From positions 1-33,664 of the forward strand of contig ONHI01000009.1 in the NCBI GenBank assembly GCA_900317565.1: a stretch of DNA of 33,664 nt. Reading direction: 5' to 3'. Position 1 is the stretch's first letter, and every line of letters starts with the position of its first letter. The notes under the pieces were generated by a model that was not told the origin of the DNA, did not search any database, and saw only the letters and a program-made list of their open reading frames with translations. This DNA is from an uncultured Eubacteriales bacterium (lineage in GTDB: Bacteria; Bacillota; Clostridia; Christensenellales; Aristaeellaceae). Position numbers and translations under genes: made by a program. This document shows, one piece after another, positions 3,839-30,404 of the stretch.

Positions 3839-4675
3839 TTATCTGGGCTCCTTCCCGTCCCGGAACAGGAGCATCATCTCGTTGGTGAGGCTGAAATCGT
3901 TGGGCTGGCCGACCACGTCCTCGCGCCTGACCCAGACGGCCTCCTTCAGCTCCCGGGCGTCCATGTGGATCTCGGTGGAGCCGTCCACGTCGCAGTAAAA
4001 GCCCGCCAGCAGATCGTCCACGATGGCCCAGGGCTGGGACTTGTAATAGCGGATGTTCTTCACCCGCAGCCCGGCCTCCTCCATGACCTCGCGGGCCACG
4101 GTCTGCTCCAGCGTCTCGCCGATCTCGGTAAAGCCCGCCACCAGGGCGTAATAGGGTATGTCCCTGCCGCTGTACTTGGTCATCAGTATCTCGTCGCCGT
4201 GGGTGACGCCCACGATCACGGCGGGGATGATCCGCGGATAGATGCGCCGCTTGCAGGCGGGGCACTCCATCGCCCGCTCGTCCGGGGCGGGCTGGGTGAG
4301 CGCGCCGCAGCGCCCGCAATAGCGGTTGTCACGGTACCAGTTGTACAGCTGAAAGGCCGTCCATGCCGCGAAGATGATCTCCCGCGGGCCGGCGGCGACC
4401 CGGCGCAGCTCGCGCACGCGGACCCATTCCAGCCCCTGCGGCGCGTCGGCGGCCTCCTCCATGCCCAGATAGCAGGGCGCGCCGTCCAGCGCGAACAGAT
4501 AGCGCCGCTCGGCCTCCGACGGCACGTCCGACACCCTCGGCAGCCGCACCGCGCCGTCCTCTATGGCGCAGGCCAGGCTGCCGTCCCGGAACAGGAACAG
4601 CAGCCCGTCGCCCTTCACGGCGCGGCCGGGGATGAATTCGTTGCGCAGCACGTGGGGAAAGATATCCTGTATCAT
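3839..4675 (-). CDS. nudC: NADH pyrophosphatase NudC
   Basis: The 278-residue protein has the NudC layout: a variable N-terminal domain, a zinc ribbon with four cysteines (C120, C123, C138, C141), a Nudix box at 181-203, and SQPW at 213-216, the start of the NADH-pyrophosphatase motif that follows the Nudix box. Family members cleave NAD(H) to NMN(H) and AMP, and some remove NAD caps from RNA. The ATG at 4675 overlaps the stop of the upstream NusG_II gene by 4 bases (ATGA), so it is the last gene of the Rnf operon. A link to NADH use by RnfC is tempting but unproven. The motif continues AIVD rather than the usual PFPxS, a small departure from the consensus. Confidence 0.85.
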   Translation of the reverse strand: MIQDIFPHVLRNEFIPGRAVKGDGLLFLFRDGSLACAIEDGAVRLPRVSDVPSEAERRYLFALDGAPCYLGMEEAADAPQGLEWVRVRELRRVAAGPREIIFAAWTAFQLYNWYRDNRYCGRCGALTQPAPDERAMECPACKRRIYPRIIPAVIVGVTHGDEILMTKYSGRDIPYYALVAGFTEIGETLEQTVAREVMEEAGLRVKNIRYYKSQPWAIVDDLLAGFYCDVDGSTEIHMDARELKEAVWVRREDVVGQPNDFSLTNEMMLLFRDGKEPR

Positions 4676-5184
4676 GGTTCCGCGTCCTCCTGCCCGCCCA
4701 TCAGGGCCAGCATCTCCTCCCGGGTGAACAGCTGGAGGTAGACCTGGTTCGGCAGGCAAATGATCATGTTGCCGAGTATGCGCTCCTCCCGGTTCTCCAG
4801 CGTGACGATGCCCTGGTCCACGCAATCGTGGTTGTCACAGGTGGAATCCTCCATGTAGACCCCCTCCGGGGTCAGGTGGATCAGGTTCAGCGTTTCGGTA
4901 CCGTCGGGCAGCGTCTGGGCCAGCGGATAGGTGCTCTCCCCCTCCAGGGGCAGCGGCAGCCAGCCCACCTGCGTCGGCGTGGACACCAGCACATAGGCCG
5001 TGGCGACCTGGGGCGCTTCCGCCTCTTCTGTGGGCGCTGCCTCCGGAGCAACCGTCGCCTCCGGGGCAAACGTTGCCTCCGGGGCAACCGTCGCCTCCGT
5101 GGCGGCCTCGCCCAGGCACGCCGGGCCCATCAGCGCCGCCAGCAGCAGCACGGTTATAATCCCTTTAATCAATGCTCTTCTCAC
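4672..5184 (-). CDS. Secreted or membrane-anchored NusG_II-domain protein (operon-distal copy)
   Basis: This 170-residue protein starts with GTG at 5184, 8 bases after GGAAGG. It has an N-terminal hydrophobic segment with signs of export, then a low-complexity stretch in which ATVAPE/ATFAPE units repeat, then a NusG domain II-like module. The module is marked by CDNHDC and IICLPN, a cysteine pattern typical of exported NusG_II proteins, not of transcription factor NusG. Such proteins are found with Gx transporters and flavin-based extracellular electron transfer genes. It lies just after rnfA, where rnfB would normally be, and overlaps nudC by 4 bases. A second NusG_II gene begins the same operon. 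Function is unknown; an accessory role at the membrane surface is inferred. Confidence 0.75.
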   Translation of the reverse strand: MRRALIKGIITVLLLAALMGPACLGEAATEATVAPEATFAPEATVAPEAAPTEEAEAPQVATAYVLVSTPTQVGWLPLPLEGESTYPLAQTLPDGTETLNLIHLTPEGVYMEDSTCDNHDCVDQGIVTLENREERILGNMIICLPNQVYLQLFTREEMLALMGGQEDAEP

Positions 5185-5199
5185 TTGTATACCTTCCCG

Positions 5200-5784
5200 T
5201 CAGGCCAGCCCCATGAAGCCCATGAAGGCCAGCGCCACCAGGCCCGCTGAGATCAGCGATATGGGCAGCCCCTTCAGCGGCGCGGGGACCTTGGAATAGG
5301 CGATGCGCTCCTTCACGCCCGCCATCAGCACAATGGCCAGCAGGAAGCCCAGCCCGCCAAACAGTCCGCCCAGCGTCGCGTCCAGCAGGCTCGCGCCCTT
5401 TTCGAGATCGATCAGCGCCACGCCCAGCACGGCACAGTTCGCCGCGATCATCGGCAGCCCCTCGCCCAGGGCCTCGGCCAGCGCGGGCTTGACGCCCCTG
5501 ACCACCGCCGCTGCCAGGTACGCCAGCGCGACGCACAGCAGCGCCAGCGCGGTGAGGGTCATGTATTCGGCGTGCAGCGGAACCAGCGCGAGGCTGCGCA
5601 CCAGCCAGCCGCACAGCGCGGCCAGCGTCATCACCGCCGCCGTGGCGATGCCCAGGCAGGCCGCGGCGCCCACGCCCCTGTCCTCCCGGACGGCCTCGCC
5701 GCTGCCCAGCAGGCGGACGAACACCACGTTCTGGGTGAACACGCAGCTCACCATGAACAGCAATATCCTCGAAATACCGGTCAT
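5200..5784 (-). CDS. rnfA: Electron transport complex subunit RnfA, atypical
   Basis: A 194-residue, six-helix integral membrane protein that aligns along its length with RnfA/RsxA/NqrE, including the AANCAVLGVAL block with C117 and the PAPLKG and AGLVALAFMGF C-terminal motifs. RnfA and RnfE form the membrane core and together hold a [2Fe-2S] cluster. The first conserved cysteine, in the GLCPFMG-type loop of known RnfA proteins, is missing: here the loop reads LLGSGEAVRED, with G29 at the cysteine position. A cysteine occurs earlier (C14), but not at the aligned site. The start (5784) overlaps the rnfE stop by 4 bases. Family assignment is firm; electron transfer through the usual cluster is doubtful. 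Confidence 0.85.
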   Translation of the reverse strand: MTGISRILLFMVSCVFTQNVVFVRLLGSGEAVREDRGVGAAACLGIATAAVMTLAALCGWLVRSLALVPLHAEYMTLTALALLCVALAYLAAAVVRGVKPALAEALGEGLPMIAANCAVLGVALIDLEKGASLLDATLGGLFGGLGFLLAIVLMAGVKERIAYSKVPAPLKGLPISLISAGLVALAFMGFMGLA

Positions 5785-6413
5785 TTGGACGCCTCCTCTC
5801 CGCTGCCGGAGCGCTTCCCGGCGATGGCGTTGACGATGCCCAGGATCACGCCGTACACGATGAAGCCGCCCGCGGGCAGCACGGCCAGCAGCATCGGCTC
5901 ATAGCCGGCGCCCAGCACGCACGCGCCGAACACGCTGCCGCAGCCGATCAGCTCCCGGACGACGCCCACCATTGTCAGCGCGCAGGCATAGCCCAGGCCC
6001 ATGCCGAGGCTGTCCGCCAGCGCCGCGGGGATGCCGTTCTCCGCCGCGAAGCCGTCGGCGCGACACAGCACGACGCTGCTGACGGCGATCAGCGGCACAT
6101 ATACGCCCAGAGCGGCGTTCATTTCGGGGAAGCACATGGCCATGACGGCCCGGGCGACCGTGGCGAACATGGCGCTGATCACGATCAGCACGGGCAGGCG
6201 GCCCTTTTCGGGCAGCAGCGCGCGCAGTATCGACGTGAGAAGGCCTGTGCACACCAGCACCGCTCCCGTGGCCAGGCCCAGGGCCAGTCCGTTGGCCGCC
6301 CGGGTGGTCACCGCCAGCATCGGGCAAATGCCCAGCGCCAGTCGCAGCCCGGGATTATCGCCCAGCAGGCCGCCGGCGAAGAGCGCGCCGATGGATTTGT
6401 TCTGCTTCGCCAT
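5781..6413 (-). CDS. rnfE: Electron transport complex subunit RnfE, atypical
   Basis: A 210-residue, multi-helix membrane protein homologous to RnfE/RsxE/NqrD. The first half keeps LGICPMLAVTT with C30, as in the family. The second conserved cysteine, in the VTNC-type motif of known RnfE, is replaced: the sequence is PLIAVSSVVLCRA, with S113 at the aligned position and a cysteine four residues later (C117). This mirrors the loss of one cysteine in RnfA. The ATG at 6413 shares one base with the rnfD stop codon (TGATG), and the end overlaps rnfA by 4 bases, so rnfD, rnfE and rnfA are translationally linked. A longer open frame upstream is only read-through inside rnfD. Confidence 0.85.
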   Translation of the reverse strand: MAKQNKSIGALFAGGLLGDNPGLRLALGICPMLAVTTRAANGLALGLATGAVLVCTGLLTSILRALLPEKGRLPVLIVISAMFATVARAVMAMCFPEMNAALGVYVPLIAVSSVVLCRADGFAAENGIPAALADSLGMGLGYACALTMVGVVRELIGCGSVFGACVLGAGYEPMLLAVLPAGGFIVYGVILGIVNAIAGKRSGSGEEASK

Positions 6414-7339
6414 CACGCCTCCGCCTCCTTTCCGTGTCCGTAGACCCGCCGCTTGAAGCAGCGGTCGATCAGCGGCGCGGCGACGTTCATCAGCAGCACG
6501 CCGTAGGTGACGCCCTCGGGATAGCCGCCGAAGCGGCGGATCACCGCCACCAGCGCGCCCGCACCCGCGGCATAGACGAACTGGCCGGGGGCGGACATCG
6601 GGCAGGTGACATAGTCCGTGGCCATGAACACCGCGGCGAACAGCAATCCGCCGGACAGCACGGAAGCCACCGGGTCCGCGCCGAAGATCCACGCGAACAC
6701 GCATTCGGAGGCCACCATCGCCACGGGGATGCGCCAGGTGATGGTCTTGGTGACCAGCAGCCAGACGAGGCCCAGCAATATCGCCAGCTTGCACACCTCG
6801 CCGATGGAGCCGGGGATGTTGCCCAGCAGCAGCTGCGCCGGGGTGTAGTTCGCCGGATTCGCCAGCGGCGTGGCGGTGGACAGCGCGTCCACGCCGCCCG
6901 CCCAGTTGACGGGCTGGGCCCACGCCGTCATGAACTTCGGCCAGGAGGCCAGCAGCATGGCGCGGGCGGCCAGCGCGGGGTTGATGAAATTGTCGCCCAG
7001 GCCGCCGAACAGCCCCTTGACGACGATCACCGCGAAGGCGCTGCCCACCACGGCGATCCACCAGGGCGCGCGGGAGGGCAGGTTCATGCCCAGTATCAGG
7101 CCGGTAACGGCGGCGGACAGGTCGCCGATCCGCAGCGCGTTGCCGGACAGCTTCTGCCAGAGCGCCTCAAACAGCACCGCGGAGGCGGTGGAGATCAGCA
7201 TCAGCAGCAGCGCGCCGGGGCCGAACACCAGCGTGCCGGCGACGGCACAGGGCAGCAGCGCGATCAGCACGTTCAGCATCAGCGTCCGCGTGGATTGCGC
7301 GCTGTGTACGTGGGGCGCCGGGGAGAGATTCAGTTTCAT
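6413..7339 (-). CDS. rnfD: Electron transport complex subunit RnfD
   Basis: A 308-residue membrane protein of the RnfD/NqrB family with about ten hydrophobic segments. It contains the covalent FMN attachment site typical of RnfD, DALSTATPL (151-159), with T157 as the expected acceptor, and the GGLGDNFINPALAARA block (112-127). RnfD takes electrons toward RnfG and is part of the ion-translocating core. The ApbE enzyme encoded upstream probably attaches the FMN. Only 3 bases separate the rnfC stop from the rnfD start, and rnfE overlaps the end. This subunit looks conventional, in contrast to RnfA, RnfE and RnfG of the same operon. Confidence 0.92.
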   Translation of the reverse strand: MKLNLSPAPHVHSAQSTRTLMLNVLIALLPCAVAGTLVFGPGALLLMLISTASAVLFEALWQKLSGNALRIGDLSAAVTGLILGMNLPSRAPWWIAVVGSAFAVIVVKGLFGGLGDNFINPALAARAMLLASWPKFMTAWAQPVNWAGGVDALSTATPLANPANYTPAQLLLGNIPGSIGEVCKLAILLGLVWLLVTKTITWRIPVAMVASECVFAWIFGADPVASVLSGGLLFAAVFMATDYVTCPMSAPGQFVYAAGAGALVAVIRRFGGYPEGVTYGVLLMNVAAPLIDRCFKRRVYGHGKEAEA

Positions 7340-7342
7340 GGC

Positions 7343-8689
7343 TTACCCCTTCCCTTTCTTCGCCTCGGCGGCGATCTTGTCCTTCATGGCCTTGAAAGCG
7401 CTGGTCAGATGGCGACGGGCCGGGCAGATGTAGGAGCAGCTGCCGCAGACCACGCAGTCCATCACGTTTTCATCGGAGGCGCCCTTCATGTCCCCCGCCT
7501 CGCACAGGTATTTCAGCTTATAGGGGTTCAGCCCGATGGGGCAGGCGTCCACGCAGCGCCCGCAGCGTATGCAGGGGCTCTCCTCCAGCTCCGCGGCCTC
7601 CTTCGCGCTGTACACCACCACGCCGTTGTTGGCCTTGGCCACGGGCACGGAGGTTACGGGACAGGGGAAGCCGGTCATCGCGCCGCCCATGACCACCTTG
7701 CCGACCTCGGCCTCGGGGATGCTGAAGCCGCCGCAGGTCTTGAGCAGGTCGGACACCCGCGTGCCCACGCGCACCCGCAGGTTGGAGGGCGTGCGCACAT
7801 GGCCCGTGACGGTGGTGATGCGGGAGATCAGGGGCTTGCCATCGATCACGGCGTCCGCGATGGCCGCCGCGGTGCCGACGTTCAGCACGATCACATGCAC
7901 GTCCAGCGGCAGCTTCTTCGTGGGAACCTCGCGGCCCGTGACCACCTGGATCAGCTGCTTCTCACCGCCCTGGGGGTATTTGGTCAGAAGGGGCATGACC
8001 TCCACGCCCTCCCGGCCCTGGGCGGCCCTGCGCATGGCCTCGATGGCGTCGGGCTTGTTGTCCTCGATGGCGATGACGCCCTTTTTGACGTTCAGCGCCC
8101 GCATCGCCGCCCGCAGGCCGTCCACGATGCGCCCGCTGTGCTCCACCATCAGCCGATGATCGCAGGTCAGGTGGGTCTCGCACTCCGAACCGTTCAATAT
8201 GATGGTGTCGCAGTACTGCCCCTCCTTGACCGCGAATTTCACGTGGGTCGGGAAGGACGCGCCGCCCATGCCGCACACGCCGGCGGCCTTGATGGCGGGC
8301 ACGATCTTCTCCGCGGGACAGCTCTCGACGCTGCCCAGGGGCTCGAGCCCCTCCACCCACTCGTCCTTGAAGTCGTTTTTGATGGTCACGGCCATGGCCG
8401 AGGGCGAGGTCACCGACTGCACGGGACCCACCGCCGTCACCTGGCCGGACACGCTGGCGTGCACCGGCAGGCCCAGGAAGCCCACGGGCTCGCCGATGAC
8501 CTGGCCGAGCTTGACCCGGTCGCCCACCTGCACGCAGGGCGTGCTGGGCGCGCCCAGGTGCATGCCCATCAATATGGTCACGGTATCGGCGACGTAGTCG
8601 CGCACCGCCGCGCCGCTGGTCGCCGCCTTCCCCTCATGGGCGCCGTGCAGCGGATGCACGCCCCCGCGAAAGGTTCTGAGATTCGACAA
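7343..8689 (-). CDS. rnfC: Electron transport complex subunit RnfC
   Basis: The 448-residue protein has the RnfC order: an N-terminal FRGGVHP domain, the NADH/FMN-binding region shared with complex I NuoF (GMGGASFPTHVK), a SLBB-type segment, and two C-terminal 4Fe-4S motifs, CIRCGRCVDACP and CVVCGSCSYICP. It is the peripheral subunit that exchanges electrons with NADH. I choose a TTG start at 8689, 8 bases after GGAGG; a GTG at 8698 is in frame but overlaps that site. Both Fe-S motifs are intact, so NADH chemistry at this end looks normal. In standard Rnf, electrons pass between RnfC and the ferredoxin-like RnfB, which is absent from this window. Confidence 0.92.
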   Translation of the reverse strand: MSNLRTFRGGVHPLHGAHEGKAATSGAAVRDYVADTVTILMGMHLGAPSTPCVQVGDRVKLGQVIGEPVGFLGLPVHASVSGQVTAVGPVQSVTSPSAMAVTIKNDFKDEWVEGLEPLGSVESCPAEKIVPAIKAAGVCGMGGASFPTHVKFAVKEGQYCDTIILNGSECETHLTCDHRLMVEHSGRIVDGLRAAMRALNVKKGVIAIEDNKPDAIEAMRRAAQGREGVEVMPLLTKYPQGGEKQLIQVVTGREVPTKKLPLDVHVIVLNVGTAAAIADAVIDGKPLISRITTVTGHVRTPSNLRVRVGTRVSDLLKTCGGFSIPEAEVGKVVMGGAMTGFPCPVTSVPVAKANNGVVVYSAKEAAELEESPCIRCGRCVDACPIGLNPYKLKYLCEAGDMKGASDENVMDCVVCGSCSYICPARRHLTSAFKAMKDKIAAEAKKGKG

Positions 8690-8713
8690 TTTCAGCACCT
8701 CCTGCCCTTTCCC

Positions 8714-9034
8714 CTATACCTCATGCTTTTCATGCTTGCTCTCCCAGTGCACCAGCAGGGTCATCGCCGCGCGCATCGCGATGATGGCGCAGGTCATGCC
8801 GATGTCCCGCCAGTCCGGGGCGATGATCGTCTTCAAAACCTCGCTGCCCAGCAGGAAGTTCAAGGCGGTGGCAATGCCCTCGGTAAACACGTTCTTGCCC
8901 TTGTCCGGGTTCTTGACGACGCAGACCAGCGCCTTGACAGCGGAGATGAATATGATCACCGCGCCGACGGCCTCCAGGATCAGTATGCCGTAGCGCACCG
9001 CGGTCTGGAAGACATCCTCGAATATCTCGTACAT
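8714..9034 (-). CDS. DUF1622-family small membrane protein
   Basis: This 106-residue protein has three hydrophobic segments and the DUF1622 pattern: a first helix with LILEAVGAVII, a GIATALNFLLGSEVLKTI middle (family: G-LxFLLAxDIxKTI), and a last helix starting near AIIAMRAAMTLL with a short charged tail. The ATG at 9034 is chosen for AAGGAG 6 bases upstream; the frame stays open to 9055. It sits between rnfG and rnfC. DUF1622 proteins have no established function, and this is not a standard Rnf subunit. Position suggests a membrane accessory of the complex, which is an inference from gene order only. Confidence 0.75.
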   Translation of the reverse strand: MYEIFEDVFQTAVRYGILILEAVGAVIIFISAVKALVCVVKNPDKGKNVFTEGIATALNFLLGSEVLKTIIAPDWRDIGMTCAIIAMRAAMTLLVHWESKHEKHEV

Positions 9035-9081
9035 ATCGGCTCCTTCCCGGCTCAAGGCCGGTCGGTCGATCCCCTGTGCTC

Positions 9082-11121
9082 TCAGAACGCGGGACGGACG
9101 CGCATCAGGCGCGCGGCGTCGCCGACAGCCGGTTCCGGTGCGGTTTCAGTTTCGACTTCGGTCGGTTCCTCCGCGTTCAGCGACGGTTTGGCCCGCATCA
9201 GCCGGGAGGGATCGACTGCCTCACTGTCGGTATCGGCAGCAGTGTCGGCTTCGGCGACAGGCTCCGCTTCAAAGGCGGGACGCTCGCGCATCAGGCGGGT
9301 AGCATCATCCGCCGGGGTATCGTCCGCAACAGGCTCCGCCGGGGTATCGTCCGCGGCAGGTTCCGCTTCAAAGGCGGGACGCGCACGCATCAGACGTGAA
9401 GCGTCACCGGCAATCGGTTCGGCATCAGATTCAGTTTCGACTTCGGTCGGTTCCGCATCACTGAATGCCGGACGCGCCCGCATCAGTCGGGAAGCATCTG
9501 CATTTTCGCCGTCGGTATCGGCATCAGTGTCGGCTTCGGCAGCGGGCGCTGCTTCGAGAGCGGGACGAGCGCGCATCAGACGCGCGGCACCATCCGCCAC
9601 AGAATCGTCCGCGGCAGGCTCCGCCGCGAAGACGGGGCGCTGGCGCATCAGACGGGAGGAATCATCCACCGTGGTATCGTCCGCGGCAGGCTCCGCCGCG
9701 AAGGCGGGACGCTGGCGCATCAGGCGGGAAGCACCGCCCTCATCAGTCGAGGCAGCATTGCCGACTTCGGTCTGTTCTATTGCTGCGAACGCCGGTCTCG
9801 CCCGCATCAGGCGGGAGGCGTCGCCGATGGCGACAGCAGACTCCGTTTCGGGTTCGGCTTCCGGCTCAAATTCAGCTTCCGGCTCGGACTCCGCCTCGGG
9901 TTCGGGCGCGCTCTCCGGCTCCGTCCCCACGTCGGTCCCGGTCTGCTCTGCCTGGGGCTGTGCCGCCGCGATCGCGGCCTTGTCGCCCGCGGGCACGAGC
10001 TCGTTCAGCGCGCCCAGCACCGCCGTGCTGGTCACGGTCGCGCCGGTGACGGCCTCGATGCCGTCCTCGCCGTAGGCGAAGGGCGCGGTCTTGCCGATGA
10101 ACTGGTCGGTAAACGCGGGCTCCGAGGCCAGCTTGCCCAGGCCGTCGGTCTCGTCCGGCGTGTCGATCGACAGCGCCGCGACGGTGTTGTCGTCGTTCAG
10201 CCGGACCGTCACGGTCACGTCGCCGCCGAAGCCCTGCACCGTCTGGGAGACGGGCTCCGCGGACTTCGCCCCGCCGCCGGACACGATCTCGTTGATGGCC
10301 TCCAGCGCCGCGTTGGAGGTGAAGGTCGCGCCGGTCACGGCCTCGATGCCGTCCTCGCCGTAGCTGAACGGCCCGGTCTTGCCGATGAACTGGCTTGTAA
10401 AGGCCTTCTCGGAGGCCAGCTTGCCCAGGCCGTCGGTCTCGTCCGGGGTATCGACGGCCAGGTATTCGATGGTCCCGTCCTCCGCAAAGCCCACGGTGGC
10501 GGTCACGTCGCCGCCAAAGCCCTTCCGGGTGGCGGAGGTGGTCGCGCCGAGATAGACTTCGGTCTGTTCTTCATCCAGGCCCAGCGGATAGGTGCGGACG
10601 TAGTTGGTCACGGCGTTCACGCCGCTGACCACCGCCCGGGACGTGGTGGACGCGCCGCTGACGGTGTCCACGCCGTCCTCGTTCAGCACCACGTTCGGGG
10701 TCTTGCCCACGAACTGGGCGGTGAACGCCTTCTCCCGGGTGAGCGCGCCCAGGCCGGGCGTCTCCGCGAATCCCTCGCCGCCCACCGACACGCCGGTGAT
10801 CTCGCCCGCCGGGTTGACGCCCGTCGTGACCTCCACCGGCCCGCCGTATCCGCTGACCGTGGTCTGGCCCACGTAGCCCAGGGCGTCGCCCGCGGCGTCA
10901 AAGCCCTGGTAGAGGTTGTCCAGGGTGTAGCGGCTCTCCTCCAGCGCCACCGCCTCGAAGCGCTCCGCGCCGGGCAGCGCCTTGGCCCGGGCGGCGTCCT
11001 CCAGCTTCACCTCCTGCGCCGCGACGCGCCCCGCCGTCAGGCGGTTGACCTGGCTCAGCAGCAGCACCGCGCACGCGCAGACGAGCAGCAGCGACACCCA
11101 AACAGGCATTTTTTTCTTCAC
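9082..11121 (-). CDS. rnfG: Enlarged RnfG-like protein: three FMN-attachment domains plus a nine-motif acidic tail
   Basis: 679 residues, against about 200 for ordinary RnfG. Residues 1-28 form one membrane anchor, followed by an RnfG-like AKALPGAERFEAV segment. Three FMN-binding domains follow, each with a flavin attachment motif: DTVSGASTTS (acceptor S158), EAVTGATFTS (T266) and EAVTGATVTS (T362). From about 380 the protein becomes rich in Glu, Asp, Ala and Pro and is probably disordered. From 434 to the last residue it carries nine copies of RLMRxRPxF-like motifs spaced 24-33 residues apart. The GTG start at 11121 lies 8 bases after GGAGG. ApbE is encoded just upstream and should flavinylate it outside the membrane. 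Domains 2 and 3 are close copies of each other. What the tail binds is unknown. Confidence 0.85.
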   Translation of the reverse strand: MKKKMPVWVSLLLVCACAVLLLSQVNRLTAGRVAAQEVKLEDAARAKALPGAERFEAVALEESRYTLDNLYQGFDAAGDALGYVGQTTVSGYGGPVEVTTGVNPAGEITGVSVGGEGFAETPGLGALTREKAFTAQFVGKTPNVVLNEDGVDTVSGASTTSRAVVSGVNAVTNYVRTYPLGLDEEQTEVYLGATTSATRKGFGGDVTATVGFAEDGTIEYLAVDTPDETDGLGKLASEKAFTSQFIGKTGPFSYGEDGIEAVTGATFTSNAALEAINEIVSGGGAKSAEPVSQTVQGFGGDVTVTVRLNDDNTVAALSIDTPDETDGLGKLASEPAFTDQFIGKTAPFAYGEDGIEAVTGATVTSTAVLGALNELVPAGDKAAIAAAQPQAEQTGTDVGTEPESAPEPEAESEPEAEFEPEAEPETESAVAIGDASRLMRARPAFAAIEQTEVGNAASTDEGGASRLMRQRPAFAAEPAADDTTVDDSSRLMRQRPVFAAEPAADDSVADGAARLMRARPALEAAPAAEADTDADTDGENADASRLMRARPAFSDAEPTEVETESDAEPIAGDASRLMRARPAFEAEPAADDTPAEPVADDTPADDATRLMRERPAFEAEPVAEADTAADTDSEAVDPSRLMRAKPSLNAEEPTEVETETAPEPAVGDAARLMRVRPAF
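9085..9822 (-). repeat. Nine in-frame repeats encoding RLMRxRPxF motifs
   Basis: Residues 434-679 of the RnfG-like protein. The arginine that opens each motif is at 437, 466, 490, 514, 545, 576, 609, 640 and 671. Each copy is R-L-M-R-x-R/K-P-x-F/L, mostly preceded by Asp-Ala-Ser, and spacers are acidic. Copies 2 to 4 are 24 residues (72 bases) apart with nearly identical DNA, showing recent tandem duplication; most later spacings are 31. The last copy ends exactly at the stop codon. Confidence 0.92.
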
Positions 11122-11155: not shown

Positions 11156-12145
11156 TCATTCCGCCATGTATGCCTTCGCGCCGGAGGTATAGCTCACCGT
11201 CCGGTCCCGGGCGATGAAGACCGCCTCCACGCCCTCGATGCCCTCGATCAGCGCCGTGCCCGCCTCGGTGCCGAGGGCAAACGCCGCCGTCGCCAGCGCG
11301 TCACCCCACATGGAGCTGTCCGAGAAGATGGTCACCGAGGCCAGCTCGTTCTGCACCGGCCAGCCCGTGGCGGGGTCCAGTATATGATGGTAATACACCC
11401 CGTCCAGCTCGAAGCCGCGCTCGTAGATGCCGCTGGTCACGGTGCTTCCGCCGAAGTTCTTCGCCACCAGCATGTACTCCCCGGTGGGCCGGTCGATGTC
11501 CTGTATGCCCACCCGCCAGGGGCTGCCGTCCGGCTTCAAACCGATGGTGACGATGTTGCCGCCGAAGGACAGCACCGCGCTGGTCACGCCCCTGTCCTCC
11601 AGATAGCCCTTCACCGCGTCGGCGATGTAGCCCTTGGCGATGCCGCCCAGGTCGATCATCATGCCCTCGGGCAGCGTGACCCGACTTCCGTCGGTTTTGA
11701 CCTGCGTGTAGTCCACGCGTGCCGCGGCCTCCGCCAGCGTCCGGGCGTCGGGCAGGACCGCCGCGCCGGAGGTGAAGTCCCATAGGGTCGAGGCCGGGGC
11801 CACCGTCACGTCGAACGCGCCGCCGGACAGGTCGCTCACCTGCCGGGCCGCCTCCAGGATCGCGAGGGTATCCTCTGAGACCTCCACGGGCGCCCCGCCC
11901 GCGTGGTTGATGCGCCAGACGTCGCTGCCCTCCACTGTGCGGGAGAGCAGCTGCTCGTAGCGCCCGCACTCCCGGAGCGCGTCCTGGAGCACCGCGGCGT
12001 CGTCCACGTAGGCCGTCAGCATGATGGCCGTGTCCAGATAAAAACCGACCGCAGACTGTTTTTCAACCTGTGCCTGCGCGCAGCCCGACAGCGACAGCAC
12101 CAGTGCCGCCATGACCGCGAGCGCGATCCCCCGCGTCCCCTTCAT
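11156..12145 (-). CDS. apbE: FAD:protein FMN transferase ApbE, lipoprotein
   Basis: A 329-residue ApbE with a lipoprotein signal (LSGC, C22), so it acts on the outer face of the membrane. It transfers FMN from FAD to the Thr/Ser of motifs such as SGAT. Family motifs are present: DLGGIAKGYIAD (165-176), HHILDPATG (253-261) and the metal-binding aspartate region WGDALATA (280-287). ATG at 12145 follows GGAG at 8 bases. Likely local targets are RnfD, the three domains of the RnfG-like protein and the two FMN domains of the divergent reductase, six sites in all. It lies between the Gx transporter and rnfG genes. Confidence 0.93.
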   Translation of the reverse strand: MKGTRGIALAVMAALVLSLSGCAQAQVEKQSAVGFYLDTAIMLTAYVDDAAVLQDALRECGRYEQLLSRTVEGSDVWRINHAGGAPVEVSEDTLAILEAARQVSDLSGGAFDVTVAPASTLWDFTSGAAVLPDARTLAEAAARVDYTQVKTDGSRVTLPEGMMIDLGGIAKGYIADAVKGYLEDRGVTSAVLSFGGNIVTIGLKPDGSPWRVGIQDIDRPTGEYMLVAKNFGGSTVTSGIYERGFELDGVYYHHILDPATGWPVQNELASVTIFSDSSMWGDALATAAFALGTEAGTALIEGIEGVEAVFIARDRTVSYTSGAKAYMAE

Positions 12146-12184: not shown

Positions 12185-12865
12185 TTATTGATCCTTGTAC
12201 ACCCGCAGCGCCGCGAACACCCGCTGGGCCACGATGCCCGTCAGGCAGCCCACCACCGCGCCGATGCCCACCAGCACCGGCAGATAGGTGTACAGCAGCT
12301 GGGGCGTGTGCAGCACGCCGCTGGCCGCCAGGATCTGCCCCACGTTGTGGGCCACGGCCCCGGCCAGCGAGGTGCCCAGCACCGCGAATTCGGCGTGCCT
12401 GCCGATCCAGAAGAAGGCGGCCGCCGCGGCTACGCAGGCCAGCGCGATCAGCAGCATGCACCACAGCATCTGTCCCCGGGGATGGGGATGCTTCGCCAGC
12501 AGCATGACGTCGCTGGCCGCGGCCAGCAGCGCGATGGCCAGCGCGCCGATCCGGGCGTTTTTCCGCACCAGCAGCATCACGCCCAGGCTCAGCACGCCGC
12601 CGGACAGGCTGTAGAGTATGGCCGACATCGACCCGAACAGGAAGCCGGACAGAAATACCTTCGCCAACATCAGCAGCACGCAGCCCCGCCAGTCCATCAG
12701 GTAGACCGCGTAGAGCAGCACCGTGTTGGCCAGGCCCAGCTTGATCCCGGGCACCGCGCCGCTCAGGAACCACGTCACCGGGATCGCCCGGTCCAGCCAG
12801 CCCAGCACCAGCGACAGCGCCGCCAGCAGCCCGAAGCGGGCAACCTTTTGCGCCTTATTACTCAC
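12185..12865 (-). CDS. Gx transporter family membrane protein (EetB-like)
   Basis: A 226-residue protein with about six hydrophobic helices and the family block LSGAVPGIKLGLANTV near 34-49, which marks the PF07456 group. That group was once labelled heptaprenyl diphosphate synthase component I but resembles small-molecule (ECF-like) transporters. Members sit beside NusG_II proteins in flavin-based extracellular electron transfer loci (the EetA/EetB pair, as I recall the literature), and the same pairing is seen here. It begins with GTG at 12865 with only a weak GGTGG site, 24 bases after the NusG_II stop. A role in flavin or quinone handling is inferred from context, not demonstrated. Confidence 0.82.
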   Translation of the reverse strand: MSNKAQKVARFGLLAALSLVLGWLDRAIPVTWFLSGAVPGIKLGLANTVLLYAVYLMDWRGCVLLMLAKVFLSGFLFGSMSAILYSLSGGVLSLGVMLLVRKNARIGALAIALLAAASDVMLLAKHPHPRGQMLWCMLLIALACVAAAAAFFWIGRHAEFAVLGTSLAGAVAHNVGQILAASGVLHTPQLLYTYLPVLVGIGAVVGCLTGIVAQRVFAALRVYKDQ

Positions 12866-12889: not shown

Positions 12890-13306
12890 TTATTCCCTGA
12901 CCTCCACCGACAGCTTGTGGGGCAGGCATATGATGAAGCCGCCCATCACCCGCAGCTCGAGGTTGTCCCGGGTGACCGCGCCCATCTGCACGCAGTCCTG
13001 GTTGTCGCAGTCCGCGTGGCGCATGTACACGGCCTCGCCGGTGATCGCGACGGCGTTCTCCCCCACGCCGTCCTGCCGGACGACAATCTCGCGGGGCTCG
13101 TCGAAGGGCACGTCCAGAAGCGGCTGTCCGTCCAGCGTGAAATAGACCCGCAGGCCCTCGCCCGGGGACACCGGCTCTCCGTCCCAGGCCGCGCCGTCCA
13201 GCTCCACCCGGACGGCGGGAACCTCCCGCGCCCGACAGCCGGACAGCACGAGCGCCGCCAGCAGCAGCGCAAGCCCCATTCCCCCGCGACGCAGCCAAAC
13301 CGCCAA
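12890..13306 (-). CDS. NusG_II-domain lipoprotein (first gene of the Rnf operon; EetA-like)
   Basis: 138 residues with a lipoprotein signal ending LSGC, then a NusG domain II-like module marked by CDNQDC and IICLPH. The start is TTG at 13306, 9 bases after a good GGAGG; an internal ATG at 13279 has a poorly spaced site. The same CDNxDC...IICLP arrangement occurs in the operon-distal copy at 4672-5184, so the two are distant paralogues at either end of one operon. It is not transcription factor NusG: it is exported and has no NGN domain. Followed directly by the Gx transporter gene. Function unknown; a surface partner of the transporter or of the redox proteins is plausible. Confidence 0.78.
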   Translation of the reverse strand: MAVWLRRGGMGLALLLAALVLSGCRAREVPAVRVELDGAAWDGEPVSPGEGLRVYFTLDGQPLLDVPFDEPREIVVRQDGVGENAVAITGEAVYMRHADCDNQDCVQMGAVTRDNLELRVMGGFIICLPHKLSVEVRE

Positions 13307-13475: not shown

Positions 13476-13533
13476 GGGAGTGTAAATATGGGTGTGGTAT
13501 GCCCATATGAATCCAAACAACAGGAGGGGTAAC

Positions 13534-16050
13534 ATGAAGAAAATTGTTGCAATGCTGCTGAGCCTGTGCATGCTGGCCGGCTGCGTCGCCCTCGCCGAGG
13601 GCGGAGACGTCCTCACCGGCAGCGCCCAGGGCTTTGCCAGCGAGGTGAGCGTTGAGTTCACCGTTGAGGACGGCAAAATCACGGCCCTGACCGTGGATGA
13701 CTCCGCTGAGAGCTATCCCACCGCGGGCATCGACCGCGCGGAGAGCGTTGAAAAGCTGATCGCGGCCATCCTGGAGGCCGGCACCACCGAAGGCGTGGAT
13801 GTCACCACCGGCGCGACCTTCACCAGCACCGCCGTCGTTGATGCCATCAACGCCGCCATGGCCGGCGGCAATGACGCGGCGAGCGACGCCGAGATGACCT
13901 TCACCGCCGGCACCTACGAGGCCACCGCCGACGGCTACAACGGCCCCGTGACCCTGTCCGTCACCTACGCCGAGGACAAGATCGAGGCCATCGACATCGT
14001 GTCCAGCGTGGAGACCGACCACGTGGGCACCGTCGCCTACGACATCATGATCCCCGAGATGCTGGAAGCCAACGGCTCCGGCGTGGACGGCGTCTCCGGC
14101 GCGACCTTCACGACCCGCGCCCTGCGCAACGCCGTGAACGACACCGCCGAGCAGGCGGGCTGCACCAACCTGGACGCCTTCAAGGCCGCCAAGATCGAGC
14201 ACACCGCGGGCGATCCCGTGGAGCTGGAGTACGACGTGGTGGTCGTGGGCGCCGGCGGCGCCGGCATGGCTGCCGCGGCCCAGGCCGCCCAGGACGGCAA
14301 CACCGTGTTGGTGATCGAGAAGAACGCCGAGGTCGGCGGCAACACGCTGGTCTCCGGCGGTCAGTATCAGTCCGTGATGCCCTACCTGGTGTGGGATCCC
14401 GCCGATCCGGACGCCACCACCGGCGTCTATGAGCACGACGGCCAGACCTACGACAAGGTCAAGTCCGTGCAGGGCTGCATCGACGAGCTGAAGATGATCC
14501 TCAACTGGAGCGAGGAGCCCTTCGACGAGGACTACTACAAGGACAACGAGTTCGTGGCGGGCGACGCCGCCGAGCTGAGCAAGCACGGCGTGCATCAGGA
14601 GTACCTGCCCGTGCTGCAGGCCCTGAAGGCCGAGATCCAGGCCTATCTGGATTGGGCGCAGCCCCAGCTGGACGCGGGCACCCCCGAGAACCAGCTGACC
14701 CTGTTCTCCACCGTGAACCTGCACATCTTCCAGACCTACTACGGCGGCCTGCGCCAGAGCGCTGACAAGACCCAGTGGATCTACGGCGACGTGGACCTGG
14801 TGAGCCAGTTCATTGAGGGCGGTCAGGGCCTGAAGGAGTGGCTGGAGGACCAGGGCGCGACCTTCGTCGAGAACAGCCAGCCCACCCTGATCGGCGCGCT
14901 GTGGTATCGCGAGAACGAGTTCATCGGCTCCACCATCGACCTGGACGGCGACGGCAATCCCGAGATGGGCCGCTGGGGCAGCTACTTTGCCGCGCCCATG
15001 GCCACGCTGTACAAGGCCAACGACAAGAACGACATCATGATCCGCACCACCGCCACCGACCTGATCGTCGAGGACGGCCGCGTGACCGGCGTGAAGGCCG
15101 TGCACTATGATGGCACCGAGGTCACCGTGAAGGCCGACAAGGGCGTCATCCTGGCCACCGGCGGCTATGCCGCGAACATCGACATGGTGCTGGAGCACAA
15201 TGTCTATTGGTCCACCGAGTACCTGACCAAGTCCACCAAGACCACCAACCGCTCCAGCCAGCAGGGCGACGGCATCGCCATGGCGGAGGCCGTCGGCGCG
15301 GCGACCACCGGCCTGGGCTTCACCCAGCTGATGCCCATCTCCTGGGTGGACAACGGCAACCTGGCCTTCGGCGGCGGCAACTACGCCTGCTGGATCAACC
15401 CCACCACCGGCCACCGCTTCGTGGACGAGGGCTCCGAGCGCGACGTGCTGTCCCTGGCCGAGTTCCACAACGGCATCGTGGTCAACGGCACCCCGGGCGT
15501 CTTCCTGGAGTTCTACAACAAGACCGAGCCCATCCCCGGCCCGCCCATCGCGCAGCTGGGTGACGAGGACTTCGAGGGCCGCTACTACTTCGTGCACGGC
15601 AACGTGGACGAGCTGACCGAGCTGTTCGGCAAGCTGGACGGCGTCACCGCCGATCCCGCCACCGTGCTGGAGACCATCAAGGCCTACGACATGGCCGTGA
15701 TGGGCCAGGGCGAGTATCCCGACGTGGGCAAGGCCATCGCCTCCCGCACCGTGGGCAACGTGGAGATGAACGAGGACGGCAGCTACAACGTGGATTCCTA
15801 TGATCTGGAGAACACGCTGCTGACCGTGCGCCTGATGGCTCCCTCCACCCACCACACCATGGGTGGCATCGTGGTCGACACCGACCGCCACGTGCTGGAC
15901 GCCGACGGCAACGCCATCCCCGGCCTGTACGCGGCCGGCGAGGTCACCGGCGGCATCCACGGCGGCAACCGCCTGGGCGGCAACGCCATCGTGGAGATCT
16001 TCGTGTCCGGCCGCACCGCCGCGCAGGCTGTGTCCGCGGACAACAAGTAA
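13534..16050 (+). CDS. Secreted flavoprotein reductase: two FMN-attachment domains and a fumarate-reductase-like FAD domain
   Basis: 838 residues. The N-terminal signal has a possible lipobox (LAGC, C17); cleavage after ALA is an alternative. Two FMN-binding domains follow, with DVTTGATFTS (acceptor T95) and DGVSGATFTT (T191). From about 230 there is an FAD_binding_2 domain with GAGGAG (239-244). Family active-site elements are kept: the SERD arginine (R636), HHTMGG (773-778) and GGNRLGGNAI with R813, as in fumarate and urocanate reductases. It should reduce an alkene-type acceptor outside the membrane; the substrate is unknown. ATG at 13534 has GGAGG upstream. It is divergent from the Rnf operon, whose ApbE probably flavinylates it. 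Confidence 0.88.
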   Translation: MKKIVAMLLSLCMLAGCVALAEGGDVLTGSAQGFASEVSVEFTVEDGKITALTVDDSAESYPTAGIDRAESVEKLIAAILEAGTTEGVDVTTGATFTSTAVVDAINAAMAGGNDAASDAEMTFTAGTYEATADGYNGPVTLSVTYAEDKIEAIDIVSSVETDHVGTVAYDIMIPEMLEANGSGVDGVSGATFTTRALRNAVNDTAEQAGCTNLDAFKAAKIEHTAGDPVELEYDVVVVGAGGAGMAAAAQAAQDGNTVLVIEKNAEVGGNTLVSGGQYQSVMPYLVWDPADPDATTGVYEHDGQTYDKVKSVQGCIDELKMILNWSEEPFDEDYYKDNEFVAGDAAELSKHGVHQEYLPVLQALKAEIQAYLDWAQPQLDAGTPENQLTLFSTVNLHIFQTYYGGLRQSADKTQWIYGDVDLVSQFIEGGQGLKEWLEDQGATFVENSQPTLIGALWYRENEFIGSTIDLDGDGNPEMGRWGSYFAAPMATLYKANDKNDIMIRTTATDLIVEDGRVTGVKAVHYDGTEVTVKADKGVILATGGYAANIDMVLEHNVYWSTEYLTKSTKTTNRSSQQGDGIAMAEAVGAATTGLGFTQLMPISWVDNGNLAFGGGNYACWINPTTGHRFVDEGSERDVLSLAEFHNGIVVNGTPGVFLEFYNKTEPIPGPPIAQLGDEDFEGRYYFVHGNVDELTELFGKLDGVTADPATVLETIKAYDMAVMGQGEYPDVGKAIASRTVGNVEMNEDGSYNVDSYDLENTLLTVRLMAPSTHHTMGGIVVDTDRHVLDADGNAIPGLYAAGEVTGGIHGGNRLGGNAIVEIFVSGRTAAQAVSADNK

Positions 16051-27090: not shown

Positions 27091-28707
27091 ATGAAAAGGT
27101 TGACGTGCCTGCTGGCGCTGCTGCTGGCACTGGCGCTGCCCGCGTCGGCGCTGGCCGAGACACTCGACGGCGTCTATGCCGCCTCCCCCGCCGAGGCGGA
27201 TTGGGTGGACGTCCCCGTGGACGAGCTGGAGCTGGACCTGATGGCGCCGGAGGACGCGACGCCCGCCGAGGGCACGGCGGAGACCCCCGCGACGCCCGTC
27301 GAGGGCACGACCGAGACCCCCGCGCCGCCCATCGAGAGTACGACGGAAAACCCCGCTGAGCAGACGCCCGCAGAGCCCGCGCCGGAGACCCCCGCGGAGC
27401 CCGTCGAGGAACAGCCCGAGACGCCGTCCTACCTGGGCGACGCCATCGCGGCCAAGACCATCAAGGTCTCGAAAAACCTCTCCAAGACGGTGTACATGGG
27501 CATCCCCTATGCGCTGTCCGTGACCGGCGGCATCAAGAAGGTCAAGACCAGCGCCTCCAAGATCGCCAAAGGCGCGAAGGACGGCACGCTGACGCTGAAA
27601 AAGCCCGGCAAGGCCAAGCTGACCATCACCACCCGCAAGGGCAAGAAGTTCGTGCTGACCCTGACGGTGAAGGACACGCCCGCGCCCACGTCCCCCAAGG
27701 TCACCTACAAGAGCGGCAAGTTCAAGCTGAAGTGGACCAAGGCGAAGTACGCCACGGGCTATCTGATCCAGTACAGGCCCGCGGACGGCGAGTGGACGGA
27801 CTTCAAGGCCGTGTCCAAGAGCAAGACCAGCGCCACCGTCACCGACGCCGTGACCGGCACGATGGATCTGCGCGTGGTCGCCATACTGGGCGACACCCTG
27901 GGCGGCGAGAGCGACGCGGTGTCCGTGCTGGGCGCGGTGACCAATGTGAAGGTCATCTGCGAGGAGGAATACACCTACGGCCCCACCGACCATCTGAACG
28001 TCACCTGGAAGGCCTCCGTCGGCGCGACGGGCTATGAGGTCTACCGCGCCACGCTGCCCTCCGACAGCTACAAGAAGATCGGCGAGACCACCAAGACCTG
28101 GTATGCCGACACCCGCGACCCGGACAAGCTGTACGCCTACAAGGTCGTGCCCGTGCACGAGGGCATCGAGGATCTGCCGGAGAGCGAGCCCGTGACGCTG
28201 TGGAGCGGCATGATCGACAACGTGCACCCGCCCAAGGATATGAAGAGCGACACCGGCATCATATTGCTGGTGAACAAGAAGGCCCAGGTCGTCACCGCCT
28301 ACATCAAGGACGCCGACGGCAAGTACACGCTGCCGCTGCGGCAGATGATCTGCTCCACCGGCGCGACCTACAGCCGCACCCGCAACGGCGAATACACGCT
28401 GGGCCAGCGGGGCGGCGAATGGTACCGCTATCCCAGCGGGGTCTACATCCACTGGCCGTCCACCTATCGCAGCGGCTATTACTTCCATTCCCCGCTGTAC
28501 TCCGCCTCCAAGAGCGTCATGGGCTATACCGTGCGCCAGCTGGGCAGCCGCGCCTCCGCGGGCTGCGTGCGGCTGAAGGTGCGGGACGCCGATTGGGTGT
28601 TCCACCACTGCCCCGCGGGCACCACGGTGTACATCTGCGACGGCAAGGAGCTGACCAAGCTGAAGGACGCGCTGAAGCCCAAGGACGTGGAGGTCAACGG
28701 CTTCTGA
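27091..28707 (+). CDS. Secreted L,D-transpeptidase (YkuD), copy 1
   Basis: 538 residues: signal peptide (1-22), a Pro/Thr/Glu/Ala-rich linker (about 55-115) of repeated TPAE/ETPA units, a lysine-rich region (about 120-200), two fibronectin-III-like domains (about 205-385) and a C-terminal YkuD domain (about 395-530). The active site has H466 (YYFHSP) and C492 in SAGCVRL. Most relatives read SHGC; the S-x-G-C core needed for catalysis is kept, with alanine instead of histidine. YkuD enzymes form 3-3 cross-links or attach proteins to peptidoglycan. AAGGTGAG provides the ribosome site. It is a close paralogue of the next gene. Confidence 0.88.
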   Translation: MKRLTCLLALLLALALPASALAETLDGVYAASPAEADWVDVPVDELELDLMAPEDATPAEGTAETPATPVEGTTETPAPPIESTTENPAEQTPAEPAPETPAEPVEEQPETPSYLGDAIAAKTIKVSKNLSKTVYMGIPYALSVTGGIKKVKTSASKIAKGAKDGTLTLKKPGKAKLTITTRKGKKFVLTLTVKDTPAPTSPKVTYKSGKFKLKWTKAKYATGYLIQYRPADGEWTDFKAVSKSKTSATVTDAVTGTMDLRVVAILGDTLGGESDAVSVLGAVTNVKVICEEEYTYGPTDHLNVTWKASVGATGYEVYRATLPSDSYKKIGETTKTWYADTRDPDKLYAYKVVPVHEGIEDLPESEPVTLWSGMIDNVHPPKDMKSDTGIILLVNKKAQVVTAYIKDADGKYTLPLRQMICSTGATYSRTRNGEYTLGQRGGEWYRYPSGVYIHWPSTYRSGYYFHSPLYSASKSVMGYTVRQLGSRASAGCVRLKVRDADWVFHHCPAGTTVYICDGKELTKLKDALKPKDVEVNGF

Positions 28708-28710
28708 CGC

Positions 28711-28739
28711 TTGTCAGATCACCTGAAATATGGTAAAAT
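28711..28739 (+). promoter_or_regulatory. Promoter of the second L,D-transpeptidase gene
   Basis: TTGTCA (28711-28716), 17-base spacer, TAAAAT (28734-28739), 42 bases before the ATG. Each paralogue thus appears to have its own promoter. Confidence 0.65.
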
Positions 28740-28781
28740 CAGTTAAAGCCACTTGAAAAATGTTTGCGAAGGTGAGAGTAA

Positions 28782-30404
28782 ATGAAGAAGCGTCTGACAT
28801 GCCTGCTGGCGCTGCTGCTGGCGCTGGCGCTGCCCATGGCGGCGCTGGCCGAGGCCGTGCCCGGGGAGGGCTTTGACGGGGTCTATGAGATCTCCCCCGC
28901 CGAGGCGGACTGGGTGGACGCCCCCGTGGACGAGCTGGAGCTGGAGCTGACAGTCCCGGAGATCGCCGCGCCGGAGGATGCGGCCGCCGCGGAGGGCGCG
29001 ACCGAGACCCCCGCCGGCGAGACGCCCGCGACGCCCGCCGAGGGCACGCCGGAACCCCCCGCCGAGCCCGCGCCGGAGACGCCCGCGGAGCCCGCCGAGG
29101 CGCAGCCCGAGACGCCGTCCTACCTGGGCGACCCCATCGCCGTCAAGACCATCAAGGTCTCCAAGGACCTGTCCAAGACGGTCTACAAGGGCATCCCCTA
29201 CGCGCTGTCCGTGACCGGCGGCATCAAGAAGGTCAAGACCAGCGCCTCCAAGGTCGCCAAGGGGGCCAAGGACGGCACGCTGACGCTGAAGAAGGCCGGC
29301 AAGGCCAAGCTGACCATCACCAACGGCAAGGGCAAGAAGTTCGTGCTCACGCTGACGGTGAAGGACACCCCCGCGCCCGGGTCCCTCAAGGCCACCTACA
29401 AGAGCGGCAAGTTCAAGCTGAGCTGGACCAAGGCGAAGTACGCCACGGGCTACCTGATCCAGTACAGGCCCGCGGGCGGCGAATGGACGGATTTCAAGGC
29501 TGTCTCCAAGAGCAAGACCAGCGCCACCGTCACCGATGCAGTGGCCGGGACGACCGATTTCCGCGTGATCGCCATACTGGGCGACGCCCTGGGCGGCGAG
29601 AGCGCCACGGTTTCCGTGCTGGCGCCGGTGACCGACGTGAAGGTCATCTGCGAGGAGGAATTCTACTTCGGCCCCACCGACCACCTGAACGTCACCTGGA
29701 AGGCCACCGTGGGGGCCAGCAAGTACGAGGTCTGGCGCGCGACGCTGCCCTCCGGGAAGTACAAGAAGATCGGCACCACCAAGAAGACCTGGTTCGCCGA
29801 CACCCGCGACCCGGAGAAGCTGTACGCCTACAAGATCAAGCCGGTCTCCGGGCTGATCGAGGGATTGCCGGAGAGCGAGCCGGTGACCCTGTGGAGCGGC
29901 ATGGGCAACAACGTCTATCCGCCCAAGGACATGGAGAGCGACACCGGCATCATACTGGTGGTGAACAAGACGGCCCAGGTCGTCACCGCCTACATCAAGG
30001 ACGCCGACGGGCGCTATCGGCTGCCGCTGCGGCAGATGATCTGCTCCACCGGCCGCACCTACGAGCGCACCCGCAACGGCGAATACACGCTGCTGAGCAA
30101 GCGGGGCGAGTGGTACACCTATCCCGGTCCCAGCGGCGATACCATCCGCTGGCCGTCGGTGTATCGCAGCGGCTATTACTTCCACTCCCCGCTGTACAAC
30201 GCCAACCACACCATCCGCGGCTGGACCGTCAAGCAGCTGGGCAGCCGCGCCTCGGCGGGCTGCGTGCGGCTGAAGAGCAACGACGCCGAGTGGGTTTCCA
30301 AGCACTGCCCGCTGGGCACGAAGGTCTACATCTGCGACGGCAAGGAAAAGAAGGCGCTGAGGGAAGCGCTGAAGCCCGCGGACGTCAAGGTCAAGGGCTT
30401 CTGA
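28782..30404 (+). CDS. Secreted L,D-transpeptidase (YkuD), copy 2
   Basis: 540 residues with the same layout as copy 1: signal peptide, acidic Pro/Ala-rich linker, lysine-rich region, two fibronectin-III-like domains and YkuD. Active-site H468 (YYFHSP) and C494 in SAGCVRL keep the same 26-residue spacing. Long blocks are identical to copy 1, especially around 120-200, so this is a tandem duplication. Differences cluster in the linker and in surface parts of the catalytic domain. The two may have different partners or substrates. ATG at 28782 has the same AAGGTGAGA-type site. Confidence 0.88.
   Translation: MKKRLTCLLALLLALALPMAALAEAVPGEGFDGVYEISPAEADWVDAPVDELELELTVPEIAAPEDAAAAEGATETPAGETPATPAEGTPEPPAEPAPETPAEPAEAQPETPSYLGDPIAVKTIKVSKDLSKTVYKGIPYALSVTGGIKKVKTSASKVAKGAKDGTLTLKKAGKAKLTITNGKGKKFVLTLTVKDTPAPGSLKATYKSGKFKLSWTKAKYATGYLIQYRPAGGEWTDFKAVSKSKTSATVTDAVAGTTDFRVIAILGDALGGESATVSVLAPVTDVKVICEEEFYFGPTDHLNVTWKATVGASKYEVWRATLPSGKYKKIGTTKKTWFADTRDPEKLYAYKIKPVSGLIEGLPESEPVTLWSGMGNNVYPPKDMESDTGIILVVNKTAQVVTAYIKDADGRYRLPLRQMICSTGRTYERTRNGEYTLLSKRGEWYTYPGPSGDTIRWPSVYRSGYYFHSPLYNANHTIRGWTVKQLGSRASAGCVRLKSNDAEWVSKHCPLGTKVYICDGKEKKALREALKPADVKVKGF

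Follow-up and report, generated by a model that had tools for sequence, protein, structure and literature searches.

What does a disordered-looking tail of nine basic motifs do at the end of an electron-transfer protein? The question is raised by a 33,664-nucleotide stretch of the genome of an uncultured Eubacteriales bacterium (the window), in which an RnfG-like protein of 679 amino acids with a GTG start (9082–11121, minus strand, as are all features of the window given below between 5200 and 13306) consists of an N-terminal anchor, three FMN_bind domains and an acidic tail that contains the motifs. The original prediction had called this protein RnfG, and the assignment holds: the protein matches TIGR01947 with 136.2 bits (cut-off, 102), has three FMN_bind stretches and is surrounded by rnfC, rnfD, rnfE and rnfA genes. 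The first FMN_bind domain covers residues 91–171 (10609–10851); the second and third, with limits estimated from the sequence, lie at about residues 195–280 and 292–376. The translation has SGAS, TGAT and TGAT at the three flavinylation-type sites, all of which fit the pattern [ST]GA[ST] in FMN_bind, and flavin attachment is predicted.

The low-complexity tail (residues 396–679, 284 amino acids; 9085–9936) carries, in order, RLMRARPAF (9787–9813), RLMRQRPAF (9700–9726), RLMRQRPVF (9628–9654), RLMRARPAL (9556–9582), RLMRARPAF (9463–9489), RLMRARPAF (9370–9396), RLMRERPAF (9271–9297), RLMRAKPSL (9178–9204) and RLMRVRPAF (9085–9111), each motif starting at its higher coordinate. Translation and pattern matching (nine matches to RLMR.[RK]P.[FL]) bear out the predicted nine near-identical copies, the last of which is followed directly by the stop codon. 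Successive motifs are 29, 24, 24, 31, 31, 33, 31 and 31 amino acids apart. The second arginine is replaced by lysine in one copy and the final phenylalanine by leucine in two; the x position is taken by A, Q, E or V in the window and mostly by P (67/120) across all of the arrays described below. Basic motifs alternate with Asp/Glu-rich spacers, as had also been predicted: the motifs (90 residues) hold all 27 lysines and arginines of the tail and one acidic residue, whereas the spacers (194 residues) hold 68 acidic residues and 0 basic ones. In 20,000 shuffles of the 284-residue tail the strict motif never occurred, and a looser form occurred 0.008 times per shuffle on average. A low-confidence AlphaFold model built from a two-sequence alignment (mean pLDDT, 38.9) renders the tail as coil, with pLDDT below 50.

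Downstream of the RnfG-like gene lie genes for a small DUF1622 membrane protein (8714–9055, assigned by family search), RnfC (7343–8698; TIGR01945, 480 bits, cut-off 246), RnfD (6413–7339; TIGR01946, 302.5 bits, cut-off 207), an RnfE-like protein (5781–6416; TIGR01948, 157 bits, under the curated cut-off of 213) and an RnfA-like protein (5200–5784; TIGR01943, 151 bits, under the curated cut-off of 229). Upstream are genes for the flavin transferase ApbE (11156–12145), a Hpre_diP_synt_I family membrane protein (12185–12865) and a NusG_II domain protein (12890–13306), and a divergent reductase with FMN_bind and FAD_binding_2 domains is encoded on the plus strand (13492–16050) and is a candidate electron acceptor. 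We found no RnfB polyferredoxin subunit in the window, where CxxCxxCxxxC sites occur in RnfC only; in five related clusters (L043 and L046–L049) such sites are likewise confined to RnfC, bar one 164-amino-acid frame far upstream in L046. Lacking RnfB, and with RnfA and RnfE under their curated cut-offs, the cluster does not qualify as a complete Rnf complex, and an rnfB elsewhere in the genome, for example that of the nrfA cluster discussed below, could serve it. The first conserved cysteine of RnfA is missing in all six RnfA sequences compared from window-type clusters (cluster 2), and the VNC cysteine of RnfE is missing in three of four. We take these cysteines to be the membrane FeS site of Rnf, which is therefore probably incomplete in this type of cluster. 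By eye, the protein encoded at the end of the rnf cluster (4672–5184) is NusG_II-like, starts like a signal sequence and has TVAPEA repeats, and adjoining open reading frames of 538 and 540 amino acids elsewhere in the window (27091–30404) have signal-like starts and tandem repeats.

The original prediction tied the tail to RnfG. It is present on RnfG, but it is not specific to it, as NrfA (cytochrome c nitrite reductase) and a small FMN_bind-like protein are also hosts. Concordant searches of the proteins of 60 relatives, with two-motif DNA patterns over 28 genomes of the genus and with a 29-unit motif profile, recovered the array in 20 of the 28 genomes (a single copy in one of them), at a single gene locus per genome at E ≤ 0.01. 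A reversed control DNA pattern gave one match over two scans of the genus. Three of the eight matches of one DNA pattern (L059, L060 and L063) proved to be near-copies of another stretch rather than arrays, and a weak match on contig C121 of the window's own genome (E 0.49) had no frame with two motifs in the fetched stretch.

RnfG hosts the array in six genomes (G000, G001, G005, G007, G026 and G012, in which a contig end cuts the gene), a small protein with an anchor and a single FMN_bind-like domain (the solo protein) in two (G016 and G023) and NrfA polypeptides in 12. On NrfA polypeptides the array lies between FMN_bind-like domains and NrfA (G002, G008, G009, G010, G014, G018, G019, G020, G024 and G025) or at the C terminus (G015, which is broken into frames, and G027); G020 has one copy, and the matches in G018 fall at two contig ends that resemble one broken gene. 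Where the frame was uncut, the hosts that we read have an apparent N-terminal membrane anchor, judged by eye. Separate hosts carry 5–11 copies (n = 9) and NrfA hosts 1–8 (n = 13; P = 0.003, uncorrected for kinship), and copy number differs even between the near relatives G019 (8) and G002 (2). The divergent reductase, which had been put forward as a partner of the tail, is not favoured in that role: it occurs in 25 of the 28 genomes whatever the host of the array, although it sits beside the array gene on the same contig in five of the eight genus genomes with a separate host.

Most NrfA fusions have an N-terminal part that is a relative of the FMN-like part of the solo protein. In G016 the solo domain is 57% identical to a domain of the G019 fusion from an FMN_bind-positive region, which implies that a solo array protein and an unfused NrfA correspond to one fused polypeptide elsewhere. 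The solo proteins of G016 and G070 (the latter from the sister genus) matched no Pfam family, and those of G016, G023 and G070 have SSAS or TSAS in place of [ST]GA[ST]; the solo protein may lack flavin, and we call it FMN_bind-like on account of the 57% identity.

In the genus searches the array was absent from G003, G004, G006, G011, G013, G017, G021 and G022, absences that are soft because the assemblies consist of tens to hundreds of contigs; nrfA was not found in G022. The original prediction had held that simple low-complexity tails without the motif in relatives would speak against it. On this point the outcome is mixed: RnfG lacks the motif in G003, G004 and G013, but the tails have one or more extra FMN-like domains in its place. 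Instead of an array, a second type of FMN-like domain (TVEKTTDFSTI...) is repeated along the RnfG tails of G004 (L049, 945–3554) and G003 (L014).

We collected 120 units from 22 arrays around the core [RK]-[YFLM]-M-R-x-R-P and obtained the consensus D-x-S-[RK]-[YFLM]-M-R-x-R-P. Relative to the hydrophobic residue, aspartate occupies position −4 in 94 of the 120 units and arginine or lysine position −1 in 100, and neither position was used to choose the units. The residue beside the arginines is tyrosine or phenylalanine in 76 of the 120 units and leucine in all nine copies of the window, and the methionine is replaced by threonine, valine or alanine in some NrfA hosts. Over the 22 arrays, 341 basic residues fall in motifs and 29 in spacers. 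This composition bears on the idea that the motif binds free flavin, a quinone or a similar shuttle, making the tail an electron relay or store. The replacement of the array by extra FMN-like domains in the three motif-free RnfG tails fits such a role, but the motif has no cysteine, histidine or invariant aromatic residue, its [YFLM] position varies and even its methionine is exchanged in some hosts, and we consider cofactor binding improbable.

The motifs are under stronger constraint than their surroundings, in agreement with the prediction that motifs are kept while spacers vary. Across the 17 arrays with at least three copies, we obtained a motif pN/pS of 0.25 (95% interval, 0.16–0.37, bootstrap over arrays) versus 0.68 and 0.62 in the flanks, values that are skewed towards constraint because units were chosen by pattern and those that had lost the motif went uncounted. 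In each of the 17 arrays, motif pN lies below the values of both flanks; equally fast evolution of motif and spacer codons, which the original prediction had named as a finding against it, is thus not observed. Together with the shuffles, this constraint leads us to reject chance or a simple repeat as the source of the tail motifs. With a pS of 0.40, the motifs have diverged at synonymous sites, which indicates that the copies are not fresh duplicates. A functionless low-complexity repeat that grows and shrinks by slippage would account for the fast change in copy number between G019 and G002, but it is contradicted by the constraint, by the age of the copies and by the occurrence of one motif on different proteins in two genera, and we give this neutral explanation almost no weight. 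All 12 complete C-terminal arrays end 0–7 residues after a motif, an outcome with a chance of about 5 × 10−8 under independent random ends; duplication of whole units would also make arrays end on a motif. These sequence comparisons give good support to a conserved short linear motif in multivalent form. The part of the original prediction that called for a conserved motif array stands, in 17 of 17 arrays, on several hosts and in two genera; the partner that it called for is putative.

Beyond the genus the array is rare. In the sister genus it occurs in at least 3 of 45 genomes, on a solo FMN-like protein in G070 and G099 and on NrfA in G065. The motif profile, run over 308 genomes of the family at E ≤ 0.01, returned no real arrays outside the genus other than those of G070 and G099, whose spacers differ from those of the genus, and it missed G065, so the family-wide count is a lower bound. 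Single profile matches in six further family genomes (L234 and L236–L240) were read and taken for chance. The G065 array came to light through a search for NrfA, which matched in 24 of the 45 sister-genus genomes; it comprises seven motifs at the C terminus of NrfA in a frame with no FMN site, and it breaks the rule, which we had entertained, that the array always accompanies an FMN_bind-like domain. Among 396 sampled genomes of the order, the profile found no array outside the family; seven genomes had one match each, which we took for chance after reading one locus. A three-motif DNA pattern, applied to 84,980 GTDB species with one genome apiece, returned 61 stretches, an undercount because the pattern is limited to CGN arginine codons and certain spacings. 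Four of these encode an array in FMN-like or haem proteins, all four from the genus; in the other 57, from outside the genus, no haem motif or FMN site shared a frame with three MRxRP. Some of the 57 nevertheless contain in-frame MRxRP repeats; one of them, a cyanobacterial locus (L135), has six in-frame YMRSRP in a 271-amino-acid frame without a haem or FMN site and is probably unrelated. We also looked for mobile transfer: plasmids gave no match to the array, and five viral contigs that matched a DNA pattern had no frame longer than 40 amino acids with two motifs. At least 11 changes of host state are needed on an NrfA tree, which was made by a quick method and leaves several forks open. Two NrfA of the sister genus, from G064 and G065, group within the genus; this placement suggests transfer, although the G064 branch is long.

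The three host types belong to one electron chain. The window's own genome holds a second cluster, rnfC–rnfDG (fused)–rnfE–rnfA–rnfB, followed by nrfA and then by a ResB gene (contig C243; L275, 6983–13311); rnfE and rnfA of this cluster were placed by gene order and alignment rather than by family search. The rnf cluster of the window is not the one that bears nrfA, which weighs against the docking reading given below. In all genomes that we read (the window's own, G062, G091 and G019), nrfA follows rnfB in an rnf cluster. L273 and L274 also have nrfA directly behind rnfC–rnfDG–rnfE–rnfA–rnfB, with the ResB gene next. The identity of NrfA is indicated by PF02335 (Cytochrom_C552) matches in the two proteins searched (the G019 fusion and the NrfA of G000), by five haem motifs including CxxCK in G065 and in the NrfA hosts of the genus (12 frames), and by PDB relatives that include 3ubr (E 5 × 10−46). 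No NrfA relatives were found in viral contigs. In the sister genus (L286–L302), most NrfA frames (about 800 to 1,230 amino acids) have FMN-type sites before or after the haem domain and carry no array.

We favour, without yet calling it probable, the reading that the tail is a portable multivalent docking array for which NrfA is the likeliest receptor and which gathers the Rnf–flavin–NrfA chain outside the membrane. We infer that the array is exported, disordered and able to bind; each D-x-S-[RK]-[YFLM]-M-R-x-R-P motif would be a binding unit, and the acidic, Ala/Pro-rich stretches would be flexible spacers of opposite charge. The array would thereby bring NrfA, as terminal reductase, together with Rnf or with flavin (FMN_bind) carriers and could aid electron transfer between them. 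An array on a separate flavin protein would recruit NrfA through its acidic surface, and NrfA molecules bearing their own array would be joined into clusters. We favour NrfA docking because the hosts share one chain, the solo protein and the fusions correspond to each other, separate arrays accompany unfused NrfA and NrfA is acidic.

The last two points have quantitative limits. NrfA is unfused in all ten genomes whose array sits on a separate protein. Within the genus, a separate array occurs in 8 of 12 genomes with unfused NrfA versus 0 of 15 with fused NrfA (Fisher's exact test, P = 0.0002), and in the sister genus in 2 of 5 versus 0 of 19 (P = 0.036; the NrfA of G082 and G086 were counted as fused by frame length alone), an association that is partly built in because fused proteins cannot be separate and that is not significant once kinship is considered (NrfA switches between the fused and the unfused state at least three times on its tree, and there are two to three independent pairs). 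Unfused NrfA also occurs without an array, in 4 of the 12 genus genomes (G003, G004, G006 and G013) and in 2 of the 5 from the sister genus (G064 and G072). The haem region of NrfA has a median net charge of −31 over about 340 amino acids in 23 genomes with arrays and of −28 in 26 genomes without them (P = 0.0004, uncorrected), a difference that is confounded by kinship and overlaps in range within the genus, and we rejected it as a marker of the array. Both AlphaFold runs, from two sequences each, gave a mean pLDDT of 38–39, too poor to read docking.

The G065 array, on an NrfA frame with no FMN site, misfits a model in which a flavin carrier simply finds NrfA and calls for self-association or a third receptor. 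Two live rivals accommodate it. Through its basic motifs, an electron-transfer protein might be retained by the anionic wall of the cell or by some other polymer of the envelope, in which case any member of the chain could be the host; the switching of hosts with one array per genome, the strict segregation of charge between motifs and spacers and the array on NrfA alone in G065 would all follow. However, the hosts that we read already seem to be anchored at their N termini, the fixed [YFLM]-M-R-x-R-P order with aspartate at −4 exceeds what a basic patch needs and an anionic wall would be opposed by the acidic spacers, which makes wall binding unlikely in our view. Alternatively, motifs and spacers could act as stickers and spacers that condense their bearers into surface clusters without a separate receptor. 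Alternating basic and acidic blocks, tyrosine or phenylalanine beside the arginines in most units and the many copies agree with this, as does the sufficiency of an array on any single member; but the position is leucine in nine of nine window copies and charge-driven assembly would not require so uniform a motif, and we rate self-association somewhat lower still. Set against both, docking to NrfA remains the reading that we prefer.

Multi-flavinylated carriers with RnfG or FMN_bind (PF04205) domains have been described (Meheust et al. 2021, PMC8238504; Tong et al. 2023, PMC10339131), and the protein of the window resembles them in being anchored, with tandem FMN_bind domains and an adjoining apbE. 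Flexible linkers between the domains of such carriers are reported (PMC10339131), but the sections of the two reports covered here describe no repeated motif tail, unlike the nine conserved motifs that follow the domains in the window, and the text of PMC8238504 does not mention NrfA. NrfA itself is like known members of PF02335 in its five haem motifs, CxxCK site and PDB relatives, and unlike them in that its gene comes after an rnf cluster in the genomes that we read and in its frequent fusion to FMN_bind-like domains and the array. Tandem repeats in the multihaem cytochromes of Borgs are, in the sections of the report covered here, mostly disordered with motif-like units and never interrupt folded domains (PMC9879509). 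Those repeats, like the array, sit on extracellular electron-transfer proteins; however, they are perfect, recently formed and rich in threonine and proline in cytochromes, whereas here the motifs are kept, the spacers drift and one motif is common to three types of host (compare PMC9879509).

Neither a motif tail on RnfG nor NrfA–FMN fusions appeared in a literature search that left subscription journals mostly outside its scope. CsoS2 and EPYC1 are disordered chains whose repeated basic motifs gather an enzyme, and multivalent disordered recruitment is best known from carbon-fixing organelles. The array would be comparable to these proteins in working principle and differs from them in its presumed location outside the membrane, its fusion to redox proteins and its movement between hosts.

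Taken together, the evidence suggests a docking tag in many copies that can move between proteins, and not repeats without meaning. To our knowledge, it is an open question by what means flavin carriers outside the cytoplasm of single-membrane bacteria locate their reductases, and a selected motif that is common to Rnf, FMN_bind-like proteins and a nitrite reductase offers a handle for a partner, with the motif peptide as bait. The gene order points to Rnf-driven nitrite ammonification in rumen-type Clostridia, and the array points to multivalent disordered recruitment in bacterial respiration. In its boldest form, which is possible but which we hold doubtful, the array would be a portable docking code, present once per genome, read by a receptor and moved between Rnf, flavin carriers and NrfA, that assembles a surface ‘respirasome’ held together by disordered repeats in these Clostridia.
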